Source: Spirochaetota bacterium (GTDB lineage Bacteria > Spirochaetota > UBA4802 > UBA5550). From it: a stretch of DNA of 64,000 nucleotides. Under the pieces are notes generated by a model that saw nothing but the letters and a program-made list of their open reading frames with translations, had not been told where the DNA came from and ran no database searches. Within the stretch, counting starts at the first letter, position 1, and every line of letters begins with the position of its first letter. Positions 13,437 through 21,875 of the stretch are shown here, piece by piece. Both the position numbers and the translations under genes were made by a program. The stretch covers positions 62,001-126,000 of the forward strand of contig JAGNKX010000002.1 of assembly GCA_017999915.1 (NCBI GenBank), given 5' to 3'.

Positions 13437-13796
13437 TCAGGCAAGTGCCTTCTCCGCCGCTTTCTGGAGCCGCTCGGGCGGAAAGGGCTTGACCACGAAG
13501 TCCCTGACACCGAGCTTGATGGCCTTGGTAAGAAGGTTTTCCTGGCCCAGCGCCGTTACCATGATTATCCTGGCGTTCGGGTCCTGGCGGAGAATCTCCT
13601 CCGCGGCCTCGATCCCGTCCTTTTCACGCATCGTGATATCCATGGTGACCAGGTTCGGCTTCAGCCGCTTGTATAACTCGATAGCCTCATTACCGTTCTC
13701 GGCTTCGCCGATGATCTCATGACCGGCGGGAACCAGGGCGTCTTTAACGAGGGTCCTCATGAATTTTGCGTCGTCTACTATCAAAATGGTCGCCAT
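13437..13796 (-). CDS. cheY: CheY-like single-domain response regulator
   Basis: 119-residue receiver domain without an output domain. The acid pocket D8-D9, phospho-acceptor D53 (VTMDITM), T81 and K103 (VVKPF) are all present. It lies 157 bases downstream of cheB, on the same strand, and is followed by a terminator. Likely phosphorylated by the nearby CheA-CheC and acting on the flagellar motor, but single receivers can serve other outputs. Confidence 0.88.
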   Translation of the reverse strand: MATILIVDDAKFMRTLVKDALVPAGHEIIGEAENGNEAIELYKRLKPNLVTMDITMREKDGIEAAEEILRQDPNARIIMVTALGQENLLTKAIKLGVRDFVVKPFPPERLQKAAEKALA

Positions 13797-13953: not shown

Positions 13954-15024
13954 TTAAATATATTCAACAATTTTTTTTGGAATTTCCGATAAAGGGACAA
14001 CATCATCGATTCCGCCCTTTTCCACCGCCACCCGGTTCATGCCATACACAACGGATGTTTCCTCGTTCTGGGCTATTGTTTTACCGCCGGTTTTCTTTAT
14101 CCTGGTGATCCCGTCCGCTCCGTCCCGTCCCATCCCGGTCATGATCACGGCAACCGTGTTCTTCCCGGCAGTATCGGCCAGGGAATTGAATAGCACGTCA
14201 ATGGAGGGCCGGTGTCCGCTCACCTTTTCCCCGTCGAAAACCCTGACATAGCGGTTGTTATTCTTCTCCTCCAGGGCTATATGCTTGTTCCCTGGGGCCA
14301 CGAAGGCGCACCCGGGCAGCACCTGGTCCATGTCCTGGGCCTCTTTCACCTTCAGCTGGGACATCAGGTCAAGCCGCTCGGCGAAGGCCTTGGTGAACCC
14401 TTCAGGCATGTGCTGCACCACCAGGATCGACGAGGGAAAATCGGGCGGGATGTTCGTAAACACCTGTATGAGGGCCGCCGGCCCTCCCGTCGATGTGCCG
14501 ATCCCGACGATCCGGGTACTGGCTGTTTTTTTCAGGATCGGAGCCGCCGCTTTTATGTCCGCCCTGACGGCCGGCGCTCCGGCCGGTCTTTTATCGACCG
14601 GCGTCTCCTTGCTGTCGACCTTCGATTTGCTTACCGACTTGACCTTCGTGCGAAGCAGCTCGCTGATATCATTCAGCGACAGGGAGACCATCGATGACGG
14701 CTTTGGAATGAAATCGACGGCGCCGTATTCCAGGGCCTTGAATGTCTCCTCCGCCCCGTGCTTGGTGAACACGCTCAGCATGATGACCGGTTTCGGGTTC
14801 GTCGCTATTATGGTCCTCAAGGCAGTGAGCCCGTCCATGACGGGCATCTCGATGTCCATGGTGATGACGTCCGGGTTCAACTCCTTCGCCAGCTTGACGG
14901 CCATTTCGCCGTTGTCCGCCGCCCCGATGACCTTGATCATGGGATCGCTTTCAAGGCTGTCGGTTACGATCTTCCGTACAAGAGTTGAATCGTCGACTAC
15001 CAGTACCTTAATTTGACCCGACAT
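13954..15024 (-). CDS. cheB: protein-glutamate methylesterase/glutaminase
   Basis: Removes methyl groups from chemoreceptors for adaptation. 356 residues: receiver domain (1-125, phospho-acceptor D57 in VITMDIEMP), a linker rich in Lys and Pro (130-165), and the CheB catalytic domain with the triad S178 (GTSTGGP), H205 (VQHMPEGF) and D301 (GMGRDGADG). It overlaps the end of the CheA-CheC gene by 17 bases, so translation is probably coupled. A second cheB is at the right edge of the window; no cheR is seen. Confidence 0.95.
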   Translation of the reverse strand: MSGQIKVLVVDDSTLVRKIVTDSLESDPMIKVIGAADNGEMAVKLAKELNPDVITMDIEMPVMDGLTALRTIIATNPKPVIMLSVFTKHGAEETFKALEYGAVDFIPKPSSMVSLSLNDISELLRTKVKSVSKSKVDSKETPVDKRPAGAPAVRADIKAAAPILKKTASTRIVGIGTSTGGPAALIQVFTNIPPDFPSSILVVQHMPEGFTKAFAERLDLMSQLKVKEAQDMDQVLPGCAFVAPGNKHIALEEKNNNRYVRVFDGEKVSGHRPSIDVLFNSLADTAGKNTVAVIMTGMGRDGADGITRIKKTGGKTIAQNEETSVVYGMNRVAVEKGGIDDVVPLSEIPKKIVEYI

Positions 15025-18000
15025 TGGTCCTCATGCGCTCAACAATGATCTTAAGTGAATCGGCCTCGGGAAGAAGAAGGAGGTTCCCGATGATCTTGTC
15101 ATTCTCGAAAAAGAACGCCGTATCCATGATTACCGCATAGTCGCTCAGCATGTTATGAAGAACGAGTATCGAATCAATGACCGACTGAAGATAGTCGTGC
15201 ACTATGGTGGGCAGGCCCGCCCGTATGACCAGGTTCGATTTCTCGGCAATTACGTTGATGACCGCCGCCCCGACGATGTTGGTCAGCTCCTGGAGCGCCG
15301 ATTGTCCGTCCTCGTTGAATTCATGGGTCGTTTTCGAGGCGAGGCCGTACAGGAGATCCACCACCTCGAAGCCGATGGTTTCCTTGAATATGAAGAGCAC
15401 GGTGCCGCGCGTATCGCCCAGTATGGGCATCATGATGCCCATGTAAACGCTGTCGACATCGCCGATATGCTTGGGGATCTGCTCGATGGGCATGACCGAC
15501 ACTTCCGGGATCGACAGGTCGATCTGCTTGTTCAGTATCTTCGAAAGGGACTCGGCCGCATTGGCCGCCCCGATGTTCGCGACGAGCTGGAATTCACGCA
15601 GCTCGTCCTGCGTGAGCGAAATGGATTCGGCCATGTGTTCCGAGGGCGCCCCGGTCCCGGTCGTCGTCTTTATGCTTTCGCGCAGCTCATCCCTGAACTC
15701 GTCAAGGGCCCTGGTGACCCTCTGCCCGATCTTTGCGTCGGTCTCCGGGGACTCCTCCCGGGCGGGGGGCGCGGGCTGTTCGGCGAACATGTGAATGCGG
15801 CGATCGGTCCCGGGCCCCGAGGTGATGGATGAAGGCTTGTCCGCCGTCACCGGCTTTTTCTCTTCGACGACCGGCGCCTCCGGTTTCTGCGCTTCCGGTG
15901 CCTTCGGCTCGGTGAAGAGCATAGCGCCCGATTTGCGCTCAACGGCCGGCGCGGCTTCCCGGACGGCGGCCCTCCCGGCGGGTTCCTTCGCCTTGACCAG
16001 GTCCTCCTCCTCCACTTCTTCTATATCCGCCTCGTCCGCCTCGATAACGCGCTTGCGGTCGTATCGCGTCATCTTGTCCTGCTCGGTGATAACCTTGTTT
16101 ATCATCGACGAGATATCAAGGATAAGGCATATGCTTCCATCGCCGAGGATCGACGCCCCGGCCAGGCCTTCAACGGTCTTGTAATTCTGCTCGAGGGACT
16201 TGATGACGATCTCCAGCTTGCCCTCGAGGTAATCGACGATGAGGCCGATCTTGCGGGTGCCGAAACCGACGACCACGACCGGCATCTTGTCGTCAGGGCC
16301 GAGGGCGCTTTCCAGGTTGATGAACCGCGACAGGCGCAGCAGGGAGAGGATCTCGCCCCTGAGGTTGATGACCTCGTGCCCCTCTATGGTCGTGATGTCC
16401 GATTGCGATATCTTGATGGTCTCGATGACGTCGGTCAGCGGAATAGCGTACATCTCGTTGCGGACCTTCACCATGATGGCGGGAATGATCGCCAGGGTTA
16501 TCGGAAAAGAAAGCACGAAGCGCGTCCCCATGCCCATCTCCGTCTCGATGGACACCGAGCCGTTCAACTCGCTCACGATCTCCTTCACGACATTCATGCC
16601 CACGCCGCGTCCGGAAATGTCGGTTATCTTCTCGGCCGTCGAGAAGCCCGGCGTGAAAATGTAGTTGTATATGTCAGTATCGTCCATGGCCGCGATCATC
16701 TCCGGCGTTGCAAGGCCCATGGCGACGGCTTTCCGCTTGATATGGTCCAGATTGAGGCCGCGGCCGTCGTCGCTCACGTCGACGAAGATCTGGTTGCCGC
16801 TCTGGTAGGCGTTCAGGGTGATGTGGGCCATTTCAGATTTGCCCAGCCTCTTTCTCTCGTCGACCGTCTCGATGCCGTGGTCGGCGGCGTTGCGCAGGAG
16901 ATGCAGGAGAGGCTCGCCGATGGAATCGATGACTTTCTTGTCGAGCTCGGTGTCCTCGCCCTTGATGGTGAGCTCAACCTCCTTGTTGAACTCCTTGGCA
17001 AGGTCCCGCACCAGGCGGCGAAAACGGGTAAAGACCTGGCCGATGGGGACCATCCTCGTCTTCATGATGCCGCTCTGCAGGTCCTTGGCGATGCGCGACA
17101 TCTGTTCCATGCGGCTCTTGAACTCGTTGATGATCGATTTTTCCTCGCTGATCTTCCGCATCTCCTCGTAAAGCTTGAAGAATCCCGAGTTGGCTATGAC
17201 CAGCTCACCGACATTGTTCAGCAGCAGGTCCAGCTTGTCGATGGAGACCTTCACGGTCTTGAGCATCGCGACCTTTTTCTTTCCCTCTTTATCGGCGCCC
17301 CTGACGCCGGCATGCTCCGCCTCGGCGCCTTCCTCTTCGTCCTCGTCCTCATCAACGGCTTCCTCCACCTCTTCATCGGCGGATTCCTTCAAGTCCGGAA
17401 CCGAGGCGGACGCGGCTTTCCCCTCCTCCGCCTCTGCGCCCTGGTCGCCGTAAAAGGATTCGCTCTCGCTGAAACTCAGCACCATCTTGTCGTCCTTCCT
17501 GGTGAGGCGGATGGTGCGAATGTCGATCCGGTGTATCAGGTCCAGGTTGGCGGCGCGGCGTATTTCGTCATTGGACTGCTCCGTGATGATAACGATCTTG
17601 ACGACATTGTTGACGCTGTCGTCGCCCATGTCCTCCATGGAGGGGAAGGTTGTCACGATCTCGCCCATCTTGCCCAGGTTGTTGACGACCAGCTGGGCCT
17701 TGACCCATTTCATCTGGGCCTTGTCGTCGATGAACACGGTCACCTCGCAGCATGACCGGCCGGATTCCAGGCCGCTCTTTATCCGTGACCGCATCTCCCC
17801 GTCGAGGATTGTCTTGGGCACCTCGTAACTGGTCTTGCCGTCGGTGACGATCTCCGGGACCGCCTTCTTCTCGGGTTTCTTCGGCTTAACGGATTTATCA
17901 CAGATGGCCTTGATGTCGTCGATGAGCCATTTCAGATCCTGCTCCGGCTTCTCGCCCGACGCTACGGTGTCGATGACATTGCGGATTTCGTCGAAGCATT

Positions 18001-18277
18001 TGAATATGATGTCTATGATCTCGGAGGTGATGCCCATGCTGCCGTCCCTGATGCCCTGGAGAAGGTTCTCCATCATGTGGGCCAGGTCGCTGAGCTCGTT
18101 GAGGCCGACGAAGGCGGCGGAGCTTTTCAGTGAATGGGCGGCGCGGAAAATATTATTTATAATTTCAAGATTATCCGGATTTTTCTCCAGTTCCAGGAGA
18201 TTCTGATTCAATTCCTGGAGCTGTTCATCAGCCTCTTCGAGAAAAATATCCTGGTATTCGCCAAGAGAAAAAGCCAT
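15008..18277 (-). CDS. cheA: chemotaxis histidine kinase CheA fused to a C-terminal CheC phosphatase-like domain
   Basis: 1089 residues from ATG 18277 (GGAG 8 bases upstream). Order: Hpt domain with H48 (RAAHSLKSSAAF); a possible P2-like region; a long acidic linker; dimerisation domain (VSIDKLDLLLNNVGELVI); ATPase with HLLRNAADHGIE and GRGVGMNVV; CheW-like domain (PAIMVKVRNEMYAIPL); a Pro/Glu-rich linker; then about 200 residues of CheC type (LVANIGAANAAESLSKIL and SALQELTNIVGAAVINVI). The kinase would phosphorylate CheY/CheB; CheC proteins dephosphorylate CheY-P. The first CheC site lacks the usual Glu of E-x2-N, while the second keeps S-x3-E-x2-N. Between cheW and cheB. Confidence 0.93.
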   Translation of the reverse strand: MAFSLGEYQDIFLEEADEQLQELNQNLLELEKNPDNLEIINNIFRAAHSLKSSAAFVGLNELSDLAHMMENLLQGIRDGSMGITSEIIDIIFKCFDEIRNVIDTVASGEKPEQDLKWLIDDIKAICDKSVKPKKPEKKAVPEIVTDGKTSYEVPKTILDGEMRSRIKSGLESGRSCCEVTVFIDDKAQMKWVKAQLVVNNLGKMGEIVTTFPSMEDMGDDSVNNVVKIVIITEQSNDEIRRAANLDLIHRIDIRTIRLTRKDDKMVLSFSESESFYGDQGAEAEEGKAASASVPDLKESADEEVEEAVDEDEDEEEGAEAEHAGVRGADKEGKKKVAMLKTVKVSIDKLDLLLNNVGELVIANSGFFKLYEEMRKISEEKSIINEFKSRMEQMSRIAKDLQSGIMKTRMVPIGQVFTRFRRLVRDLAKEFNKEVELTIKGEDTELDKKVIDSIGEPLLHLLRNAADHGIETVDERKRLGKSEMAHITLNAYQSGNQIFVDVSDDGRGLNLDHIKRKAVAMGLATPEMIAAMDDTDIYNYIFTPGFSTAEKITDISGRGVGMNVVKEIVSELNGSVSIETEMGMGTRFVLSFPITLAIIPAIMVKVRNEMYAIPLTDVIETIKISQSDITTIEGHEVINLRGEILSLLRLSRFINLESALGPDDKMPVVVVGFGTRKIGLIVDYLEGKLEIVIKSLEQNYKTVEGLAGASILGDGSICLILDISSMINKVITEQDKMTRYDRKRVIEADEADIEEVEEEDLVKAKEPAGRAAVREAAPAVERKSGAMLFTEPKAPEAQKPEAPVVEEKKPVTADKPSSITSGPGTDRRIHMFAEQPAPPAREESPETDAKIGQRVTRALDEFRDELRESIKTTTGTGAPSEHMAESISLTQDELREFQLVANIGAANAAESLSKILNKQIDLSIPEVSVMPIEQIPKHIGDVDSVYMGIMMPILGDTRGTVLFIFKETIGFEVVDLLYGLASKTTHEFNEDGQSALQELTNIVGAAVINVIAEKSNLVIRAGLPTIVHDYLQSVIDSILVLHNMLSDYAVIMDTAFFFENDKIIGNLLLLPEADSLKIIVERMRTNVGSN

Positions 18278-18412: not shown

Positions 18413-18940
18413 TCACTCCTGAACCTTGTCTTCCTCGAGGAACAGGATGTTCGACAGGTTCAATATGACAATCAGCCGGTCCTTCAGCCTGCCGATGCCC
18501 CATATGTATTCTTCCGATACTCCCTCTATCAGCTCGGAAGGAGGATCGACATTGTTCCGCGAAATACGGACGACCTGGTGCACGTTATCCACCATCAGCC
18601 CCGTGAGCTTGTCGCTGGTCTCAATGACGATGATGCGGGTCAGGTCGGTCACCTTTGCCCGGGAAAATCCGAACCTCTTGCGCACGTCGACAACGGGAAT
18701 CACGTTGCCCCGGAGGTTGATGACTCCCTTGATAAAATCAGACGTGTTCGGCAGGCGGGTTATTTCCGGGAAGCGAAGTATTTCATGAACGGCGAGGATG
18801 TCCACCCCGTATTCCACGTCTTCAAGGACGAAGCTGACGAGCTGGATAATGGAGCCCTCGGCGATAAGCTCTTCTTCCTCGTCGCCGGAAATCTTGACTT
18901 TCAGCCGTTCCTGCTTGTCTATCAGTTCATTCAGATCCAT
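18413..18940 (-). CDS. cheW: CheW chemotaxis coupling protein
   Basis: Scaffold joining CheA to receptors. 175 residues from ATG 18940, preceded by AGGA. The CheW fold runs from about residue 30 (IIQLVSFVLEDVEYGVDILAVHEI) through GVINLRGNVIPVVDVRKRF to the C-terminus. A ~25-residue charged N-terminal extension precedes it. It is 135 bases upstream of the cheA-cheC start and is first in the chemotaxis block. Confidence 0.93.
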   Translation of the reverse strand: MDLNELIDKQERLKVKISGDEEEELIAEGSIIQLVSFVLEDVEYGVDILAVHEILRFPEITRLPNTSDFIKGVINLRGNVIPVVDVRKRFGFSRAKVTDLTRIIVIETSDKLTGLMVDNVHQVVRISRNNVDPPSELIEGVSEEYIWGIGRLKDRLIVILNLSNILFLEEDKVQE

Positions 18941-19340
18941 AGAGGTTGTCCTGAAATTATTTATATGTCTTTTCACTTTCCCGAAAGGCTCCACAGTCGG
19001 ATCCTATCGGGAAGGGCATTACGGGATACATCCGCAAAACCCCAGGCTCATCCCGGTACAGGCCGCGGGAAACGGCGATACATCTTCATGTCATCTTGAT
19101 TCCCTTTCCAGCGGGACAGCATAACAACAAAGTGCTAAACGATTTACTTTAAAATAAAAGCCTTACTTTTCAAGCATTTTTTTTAAATAAAATACCCATC
19201 CCGTCATAATGAGACATTTTTCGCATAATGTTTGGCACACTCTGTCAACCCCGGGGCTTGGCTCCGGTTTTCAAACACACGGTGATACCCGGGCAGATAC
19301 GCCGATATAGGATGCCGTAAAGCCATCCTGCAGGAATGAG
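18941..19340. other. 400-base gap upstream of cheW
   Basis: Holds the cheW promoter region (see 19146-19173). A further GC-rich patch at 19249-19273 resembles part of the CCGG-type repeats elsewhere. No open frame of credible composition and no terminator with T-run for the FecR/PQQ gene was found. Confidence 0.5.
19146..19173 (-). promoter_or_regulatory. candidate sigma-70 promoter for cheW
   Basis: Minus strand: TTGAAA, 16 bases, TAAAGT, in an AT-rich tract about 200 bases upstream of cheW. The -10 match is weak. Confidence 0.3.
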
Positions 19341-21293
19341 CTACTTTTTAAGGCTGGACAGTCGTTTTTCCCAGGTCTCGAAGTAGATATGCCCCCTGGA
19401 TACCGTCACGTTATTCGAAGTTATTTGCGGCACCATGAGGGACCAGGTGACAGACCCGCTGTTTTTATCAACGACAAAGAGCGTTTCAGGGGCAGGGATA
19501 TAGAAGCTGGAGCCGTCCTCGGAGGGCCGCTTTGCAATGGGCACCCCGATATCGCGTCTCCACATGAGTTCGCCCCCGGTGCCGATCCTGTATATCCTCC
19601 CGCCTCTGCCGAAGCAATACAACGAATCGCCTTCAAGGACCATCTCGCCCAGCGGAATATCATCGAGCTGGTATTCCCAGAGGATCCTGTCTTCGCCGAA
19701 GTTATAGCAGGAGAGGCGGCCGGTGTCCGCCGCGATGAATATGTTCCTCTTCCTGGCCGTGATCGACACGATCCCGCCGCCGACGCTGACCCTCACCGAC
19801 TTCGCCCCGTTCAACAGGTCGAATCCGTACAGGCTGCCGGCCCGTGTAGACACGAACGCCAGCTGCTCCGTAATGACGGGTCTCGCCGAAATGTATTCTC
19901 CGGTCTGCGAGGTCCACTGCACGTCGCCGCCCCGGTCGATTTTGCTCAATGTCCCGCCGGAGGAAGCGCAGTAGAGCCCGCTGCCGTCCATGGTCAGGCG
20001 GATGAATTCGCCCCTGACGGCCGGCGCCCGCGCCTTCCACACTCTGGCGCCGTTTAAAAGATCGAATTTCGTCACCGATCCCCCTGCGGTGGGGACATAG
20101 AGCGACGTCGCCTCATAAGCGGGGAGCGAGCTTATGGCCCCTTCCAGCGGCACCGACCAGAGAACCTCGTCGGAACGGATCGAAACCAGGCGGCCGCCGC
20201 CAATCCTGAGAACGCAGTCGGGTCCCGGCACATACATGAGGAATACGCCGGACTCCTCCGGAACGGCCTCGCGCGCCCCCTGCTTCCGCCGCGGGACCTC
20301 CTTCCCGCCGCCCTGTAACGGCGCGGCGCCGGTGACGGATGTTACCATCCGATCCATGTCTTCCCGCATTACCGGCGCGTCCCGGACGAGCCGCGGCATC
20401 GCCAGTGACGCCATGAGGTCCTTCTCAGGGACTCCGGAGATGCCACTGAGGGAAACGGCGTCATTTCCTATGTCGCAGGCCTGGCCGCCGGTCACGTCAA
20501 GGGCGCCCTTTTCGAAATACCGGTCGAGGATGTTCGCCGTCTTCGCGTCCGCCGGGCCGTCGTCAGGCAGGCGCCTCCGCACGCGCACCGTTCCTTCGAA
20601 GACTTCATACCGGACATCCCCCGCTTTCCCGATCCTCACGCCGAACCTGGTACCCCGCACGGTGGCAACGCTCCCCGGCGTATGCAATGAAACCGTCTCA
20701 CCGGAAGCAAGCCTGGCTACGTCAAGGACGCAGCCACCCTTCGACACCATGGCGTCGAAGGCCCTGGCGCCGCCGTCGAGGTCCATCGCGCGAAGGGCGA
20801 TGCGGCTCCCGCCGAGGACCCTCATCCGCACCAGGCCCCCGAACCGTATGTCGGCCGACGAGGCCGCGCCGGTGATGATAACGTCGCCGCGAAGGATCTG
20901 ATTCCCGGCCCTCAGCGTCCGGTCGATGCCGCCGCGCCGCACCATGACGTCGCCCGAGACGATCCCGGCGGCGCCGGCGCGGCCGCCGCGCATGAAATCG
21001 ATGGCGCCCGTGATAAAAAGAATTATAATGGCGGCTGCAGCCACGGCAGGCACCAGGGCCCACCAGGCTTTTTTCGGGATCCCGAACGGGGCTGATCGCC
21101 CGCGCCGCGGCAGGTCCCTGATCCGTGTCAGAAGCGCGACCGGGTCGGAGGGAGAATTCAGCCACGCCTCCGGCGCGTTCAACTCGGCGCGTTCCGCCAG
21201 GCGGGCCAGCTTCGCATGATCGATATTCCTGTAGCGCCTCTTCGTCCGAAGGGATTCCATCGCCCGCTCCATGTCATGTTCCGGTTTCGTCAC
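19341..21293 (-). CDS. membrane FecR-domain protein with PQQ-type beta-propeller
   Basis: 650 residues: cytoplasmic N-terminus (1-70), one membrane helix (77-97), a FecR domain (about 110-225, with GDVMVRRGG, GSVATVRGTRFGV and YEVFEGTVRVRRR), and a C-terminal half of repeated PQQ-like blades (LYVPTAGGSVTKFDLLNGARVW, AFVSTRAGSLYGFDLLNGA and similar). GTG 21293 has GGAG 7 bases upstream and lies 12 bases after the ECF sigma gene, so it is likely its membrane regulator. FecR-type proteins carry signals to sigma factors; the propeller would be the outside sensor or binding part (inference). No TonB receptor is adjacent. Confidence 0.85.
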   Translation of the reverse strand: MTKPEHDMERAMESLRTKRRYRNIDHAKLARLAERAELNAPEAWLNSPSDPVALLTRIRDLPRRGRSAPFGIPKKAWWALVPAVAAAAIIILFITGAIDFMRGGRAGAAGIVSGDVMVRRGGIDRTLRAGNQILRGDVIITGAASSADIRFGGLVRMRVLGGSRIALRAMDLDGGARAFDAMVSKGGCVLDVARLASGETVSLHTPGSVATVRGTRFGVRIGKAGDVRYEVFEGTVRVRRRLPDDGPADAKTANILDRYFEKGALDVTGGQACDIGNDAVSLSGISGVPEKDLMASLAMPRLVRDAPVMREDMDRMVTSVTGAAPLQGGGKEVPRRKQGAREAVPEESGVFLMYVPGPDCVLRIGGGRLVSIRSDEVLWSVPLEGAISSLPAYEATSLYVPTAGGSVTKFDLLNGARVWKARAPAVRGEFIRLTMDGSGLYCASSGGTLSKIDRGGDVQWTSQTGEYISARPVITEQLAFVSTRAGSLYGFDLLNGAKSVRVSVGGGIVSITARKRNIFIAADTGRLSCYNFGEDRILWEYQLDDIPLGEMVLEGDSLYCFGRGGRIYRIGTGGELMWRRDIGVPIAKRPSEDGSSFYIPAPETLFVVDKNSGSVTWSLMVPQITSNNVTVSRGHIYFETWEKRLSSLKK

Positions 21294-21305: not shown

Positions 21306-21875
21306 TTAAATAATTCCCTTCTCGGACAGGTACTGCGCTATCTTCTCCAGGGCCTTTTCCATCCTCCATTTCGCCGTCCGCTCGGAACAATTCATGATCC
21401 CGGCGATATCGGAGTATTTCATCTTATGGTCGTGCCTCAAAATGAAAACGGCCCTGAACTTCTCCTTGAGGCTTTCAACGGCACGGTTGAATTCCGCCAG
21501 GTCGTTTTCCCTGATGCAGATGTCTTCGGGCGAACCCCGCCTCCCCTGGTCGTCGGCAATCCTGTACCGCTCCTGTTCCAGCAGATGGGTCTCCCGCACG
21601 CTTTTGCCGATGTAATTCTTGCTGCAGTTGATCGTGATCTGGTAGATCCAGGAGGAGAAGGATTTGTTCACGTCAAATGATTCGATGTGCCGGAACACCC
21701 GGATGACGGCGTCCTGGAGTACGTCGTTCGCCTCTTCGACATTGGGAACATAGTGGTAAATAAGGCGCTTCAGCTTCTGCTCGTACCGCCCGTAAAGCTC
21801 GCTGAAAGCCGCATCGTTTCCGCTTTTATACATTCGCACCAGTTCCTCGTCGGTAAACCCCTTAACATCCTGCAT
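21306..21875 (-). CDS. RNA polymerase sigma factor, ECF subfamily
   Basis: 189 residues with region 2 (FSELYGRYEQKLKRLIYHYV to SFSSWIYQITINCSKNYI) and region 4 (FRAVFILRHDHKMKYSDIAGIMNCSERTAKWRMEKAL). The order sigma factor then FecR-domain protein suggests an auto-controlled signalling pair. The sigma gene has its own upstream gap (21876-22046) but I could not point to an ECF-type promoter there. Confidence 0.93.
   Translation of the reverse strand: MQDVKGFTDEELVRMYKSGNDAAFSELYGRYEQKLKRLIYHYVPNVEEANDVLQDAVIRVFRHIESFDVNKSFSSWIYQITINCSKNYIGKSVRETHLLEQERYRIADDQGRRGSPEDICIRENDLAEFNRAVESLKEKFRAVFILRHDHKMKYSDIAGIMNCSERTAKWRMEKALEKIAQYLSEKGII

Follow-up and report, generated by a model that had tools for sequence, protein, structure and literature searches.

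A spirochaete CheA fused to a CheC domain with one degenerate and one intact site

The cheA-cheC gene and its neighbors

The window analyzed here is a 64,000-nucleotide stretch from a Spirochaetota bacterium (assembly GCA_017999915.1, contig JAGNKX010000002.1, positions 62,001 to 126,000 of the forward strand), and all positions below count from its first letter. It contains a chemotaxis gene cluster in which a CheA and a CheC domain share a single reading frame:

18413..18994, minus strand: cheW, upstream of cheA-cheC in the cluster
15008..18277, minus strand: cheA-cheC fusion gene, 1089 aa (ORF and Pfam)
13954..15024, minus strand: cheB, with a 17-base overlap between its start and the end of cheA-cheC
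13437..13796, minus strand: cheY, a single receiver domain with D53, the likely substrate

The cheA-cheC frame begins with an ATG at 18277 and ends with the stop codon at 15008-15010. An earlier reading made from the letters alone (the sequence-only reading) had placed the gene at exactly 15008-18277 without stating its strand, which is the minus one. The 17-base overlap of cheB with cheA-cheC suggests translational coupling. The usual gene order, cheW–cheA-cheC–cheB–cheY, is kept in the taxonomic order to which the window belongs and in families f11 and f34. In families f28, f10, f27, and f9, cheD directly follows cheA-cheC; in the window, cheD does not adjoin it.

In the same region, at 19341-21293 on the minus strand, lies a gene for a 650-residue protein with a FecR domain (residues 137-237) followed by PQQ/BamB-type beta-propeller repeats, an unusual pairing. 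It adjoins, on the downstream side, a gene for an ECF-type sigma factor (21306-21875, minus strand).

By Pfam, the fusion protein has the Hpt-P2-P3-P4-CheW order of a five-domain CheA, and then CheC:

17963..18256, minus strand: Hpt (P1) domain, residues 8-105, phospho-acceptor H48 present (Pfam)
17519..17746, minus strand: P2 CheY/CheB-binding domain, residues 178-253 (Pfam)
17057..17260, minus strand: P3 dimerization domain (H-kinase_dim), residues 340-407 (Pfam)
16499..16909, minus strand: P4 HATPase domain (HATPase_c), residues 457-593, with the N-box LLRNAADHG and DDGRG (Pfam)
16094..16477, minus strand: P5 CheW-like domain, residues 601-728 (Pfam)
15614..16072, minus strand: linker, residues 736-888, 153 residues, rich in E, A, P, and K, fast evolving
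15011..15613, minus strand: CheC domain, residues 889-1089, strongly conserved (Pfam, NCBIfam, and phmmer)

The sequence-only reading, too, saw a complete CheA joined to CheC in one frame, and Pfam bears this out; the P2 domain was missing from its list. The CheA part has Hpt, P3, P4, and CheW in order, and it retains H48 together with the N-box and the DDGRG and SGRGVGM boxes for ATP binding, so that the kinase looks active.

Judged by profile and pairwise matches, the C-terminal ~200 residues are a full-length CheC domain, which agrees with the CheC-type assignment made before any search. Pfam CheC matched in two stretches with an E of 3e-10, above the Pfam cutoff, and Pfam CheX matched the same domain more weakly. 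The NCBIfam profile CheC_Thtogales matched residues 891-1082 with an E of 3.6e-32, under that equivalog's own cutoff, and phmmer aligned Thermotoga CheC (1xkr) over 187 residues with an E of 2e-21. An AlphaFold2 model of the domain, built from six sequences, had a pLDDT of 40, too poor for judging geometry.

Strong purifying selection acts on the CheC domain. Compared with one relative that is 94% identical in this domain, dN/dS was 0.022 for CheC, 0.036 for the P3-P5 core, and 0.23 for the linker; the values come from that one pair, for which synonymous divergence is close to saturation.

Spread and origin of the fusion

Among 393 spirochaete genomes, the fusion was present in 44 of the 46 sampled from the order of the window and, outside it, in about 34 belonging to several families. 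The fused frames mostly exceeded 900 residues; a few were cut by contig ends. One could ask whether two adjoining genes had been merged through an assembly or frame error. Nothing was found in favor of such an artifact, and dozens of genomes from several families, each assembled independently, have this very frame, which argues against both chance and assembly error. Since, moreover, the fused CheAs form one clade, we regard the artifact as ruled out for practical purposes.

In a tree of the CheA core, 29 fused CheAs and one unfused paralog (L275) formed this clade with support of 99/96, and its neighbors were CheAs of families that lack the fusion. The simplest account is therefore one old fusion event, widely kept, with one later loss. 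The tree of the CheC domain is consistent with a single origin without demonstrating it: it requires 2 changes, and 1 change suffices in 8% of the bootstrap trees. The unfused L275 (genome G036, family f27) stands beside L074, a fused protein from its own genome, and apparently lost its CheC domain following a duplication.

The two CheC sites and a predicted phosphatase

The CheC class definitions are said to come from Muff and Ordal in 2008, with a site consensus that reportedly reads D/S-x3-E-x2-N-x22-P. The relevant features here are as follows:

15575..15598, minus strand: degenerate CheC site 1, residues 894-901 (REFQLVAN), with L898 replacing Glu and N901 kept
15278..15301, minus strand: intact CheC site 2, residues 993-1000 (SALQELTN), with E997 and N1000 invariant in 75/75 fused proteins
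15209..15211, minus strand: P1023, the x22-P of the site 2 consensus, invariant in 75/75 fused proteins

Site 1 had been read as lacking the Glu three residues before the Asn, and L898 is indeed found there (N-3); the D/S is absent as well, with R894 in its place (N-7), and N901 and a later Pro (P924) are retained. Site 2, read as intact, follows the full consensus (S993-x3-E997-x2-N1000-x22-P1023). The domain thus has one complete CheC site, and at site 1 it departs from the two intact sites of B. subtilis and T. maritima CheC.

This pattern extends well beyond the window. In an alignment of 75 fused CheC domains and 15 free-standing spirochaete CheCs, both Glu and Asn of site 1 were present in 0/75 fused proteins, compared with 13/15 of the free ones; both residues of site 2 were present in 75/75 and 14/15, respectively. 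Most of the fused proteins have lost the site 1 Glu, and 3/75 keep it and lack the Asn instead. Across the 75 fused CheC domains, full invariance is limited to E997, N1000, and P1023. A broken site 1 paired with a fully conserved site 2 is therefore general to the fused class and not an accident of this genome. While the sequence-only reading was sound on the domains and the sites, it missed this general loss and the possible weight of the CheD surface discussed below.

We think it fairly probable that the protein is a CheA kinase to which a one-site, CheC-type phosphatase for CheY-P is attached through a long flexible linker, and the idea of a kinase and a CheY-P phosphatase in one chain is plausible from the sequence. 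The invariance of the site 2 residues favors a one-site phosphatase, as does the contrast with free spirochaete CheCs, which mostly keep both sites where the fused proteins never keep site 1. The low dN/dS of the CheC domain, the kept gene order, the single fused clade, and a CheC fold predicted from sequence point the same way. CheX has one catalytic site per chain within the CheC family, so one per chain can suffice.

We imagine that P1-P5 would phosphorylate the CheY (and CheB) from their own gene cluster, and that the CheC domain would then dock CheY-P via site 2 only (E997/N1000), speeding its dephosphorylation at the receptor array. Kinase and phosphatase would be present at the array in a fixed ratio, CheY-P would be hydrolyzed by the protein that made it, and its lifetime would be tied to the copy number and position of the kinase. 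Site 1 would have lost catalysis and kept its helix for the fold.

Several considerations temper this explanation. The two free CheX-like proteins of the same genome could do the bulk of CheY-P hydrolysis, and in B. subtilis the CheC phosphatase contributes little to chemotaxis. The conserved E/N could also serve CheY-P binding without useful turnover. Another reading would make the CheC domain a noncatalytic module for docking CheY/CheB or buffering phosphate, with the conserved residues used for binding only. No fused protein has more than one working site, and docking would be compatible with that, though P2 already docks; that the catalysis-defining residues and the consensus Pro alone are invariant is hard to explain by docking alone, and we consider such a module quite improbable.

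A possible CheD contact and comparison with known systems

A second function for the CheC domain, perhaps alongside hydrolysis, is suggested by a single residue:

15194..15196, minus strand: D1028, aligned with B. subtilis CheC D149 (CheD contact), Asp in 42/42 in the window's order

In the B. subtilis CheC sequence used for this alignment, the Asp falls at residue 149. D1028 is also aligned with an Asp of T. maritima CheC. With Asp at this position, the domain resembles the class I (B. subtilis-like) CheCs, which regulate CheD. In B. subtilis, D149 is at the CheD interface, and D149K strongly decreases CheD binding and impairs chemotaxis with CheYp phosphatase activity normal; CheD binding is the major and phosphatase activity the minor contribution of CheC to chemotaxis in that organism (PMC3513319). 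On the CheD side, the Met-Phe pair M101-F102 is reported to be conserved only where CheC exists (PMC3513319). The Asp being kept throughout the window's order, the domain probably still binds CheD, either beside hydrolysis or regulating it, and may thus be a CheD-binding module as well.

It is possible, if on balance unlikely, that holding CheD is the main role of the domain, with hydrolysis secondary. CheY-P at site 2 would then raise the affinity for CheD and pull it off the array receptors, as in the CheC-CheD-CheYp adaptation loop of B. subtilis, only with CheC fixed to the kinase. Beyond the 42 Asp residues and the D149 change to Lys, which separates CheD binding from phosphatase activity, the genomic context has something to say for this. 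Outside the order, the Asp is retained by five fused proteins (L052, L065, L074, L076, and L238, from f28, f10, f27, and f9), and each has cheD immediately downstream. The window's genome encodes six CheDs, two of them (L083 and L084) with the Met-Phe pair, and apart from the CheX-like proteins, no second free CheC was found in it. A Met-Phe CheD was present in 45/47 sampled genomes with the fusion compared with 5/26 without it, though these are related genomes and not independent events. Against a main role in holding CheD, cheD is not a neighbor of cheA-cheC in the window, and of the 33 fused proteins outside the order, only 5 have Asp at the D149-equivalent position and 22 have Gly there, although Met-Phe CheDs are kept.

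Co-variation of the CheC Asp with the CheD Met-Phe pair would have pointed strongly to CheD binding, but it fails inside the fused class, where f11 and f34 have fused CheCs mostly without the Asp and still retain Met-Phe CheDs. The Met-Phe signature is thus suggestive and no proof of binding. One can envision a combined arrangement, rather doubtful at this point, in which CheA-CheC is an array-resident CheD trap gated by CheY-P: site 2 would sense CheY-P and D1028 would hold CheD, so that the diffusible loop of B. subtilis would become local, and in f11 and f34 the CheD arm would have been lost, leaving only the phosphatase.

Other CheDs in these genomes are divergent. A second chemotaxis cluster lies past the window end (L289, C2:125500-134000), with cheY, cheW, cheD, cheR, cheD, and cheB and an unfused CheA of about 708 aa. 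Both of its CheDs are without the Met-Phe pair, and L088 has GSSV where the active-site motif GSCV is usual. Divergent CheD paralogs include L087 and L088 of the window's genome and the second CheDs found elsewhere in the order (L206, L208, and L215); the GSC motif is altered in several members of this group (GSS, GAT, and GAC), so some may be inactive deamidases.

The architecture itself and the proposal of a dual function are already known. Berry, Andrianova, and Zhulin (2023) described CheC/CheX fused to F1 CheA in class Leptospirae and proposed a dual kinase/phosphatase role (PMC10782961); the protein described here has the same architecture and comes from the same phylum. Their text names class Leptospirae only and is without site-by-site analysis, CheD analysis, or a tree of the fusion (PMC10782961), whereas the fusions found here come from several spirochaete families. 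Our analysis adds the universal loss of site 1 with an invariant site 2, the single clade, the conserved cluster, the purifying selection, and the lineage-specific CheD residue.

The free CheCs of T. maritima (1xkr and 2f9z) and B. subtilis are homologous to the fused domain over its full length and share site 2 and the CheD-contact Asp with it. They are separate proteins with both sites intact, whereas here the domain is part of CheA and site 1 is dead. CheX, like the fused domain, has one catalytic E-x2-N site per chain. It is, however, a short free protein, whereas the fused domain is a full-length CheC with a recognizable dead first site. To our knowledge, the phosphatase region of Rhodobacter sphaeroides CheA3 is not a CheC domain. 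CheA3 is likewise a CheA-type protein with kinase and phosphatase functions, as represented in the citing paper (Porter et al. 2008, cited in PMC10782961).

If the one-site phosphatase works as we propose, the kinase and phosphatase acting on one messenger would always be present 1:1 at the receptor array, whereas in model systems CheZ, CheC, CheX, or FliY is a separate protein. The sharpness and reach of CheY-P spreading would depend on this, a point of consequence for cells as long as those of spirochaetes. Some natural fusions have the CheD Asp and others lack it, and comparing the two kinds would make it possible to separate the CheD function of CheC from its phosphatase function.

The phylum has other unusual CheA architectures: L297 (G110) and L283/L284 (G068) are CheAs, about 1215 and 1061 residues long, in which nothing matches CheC.
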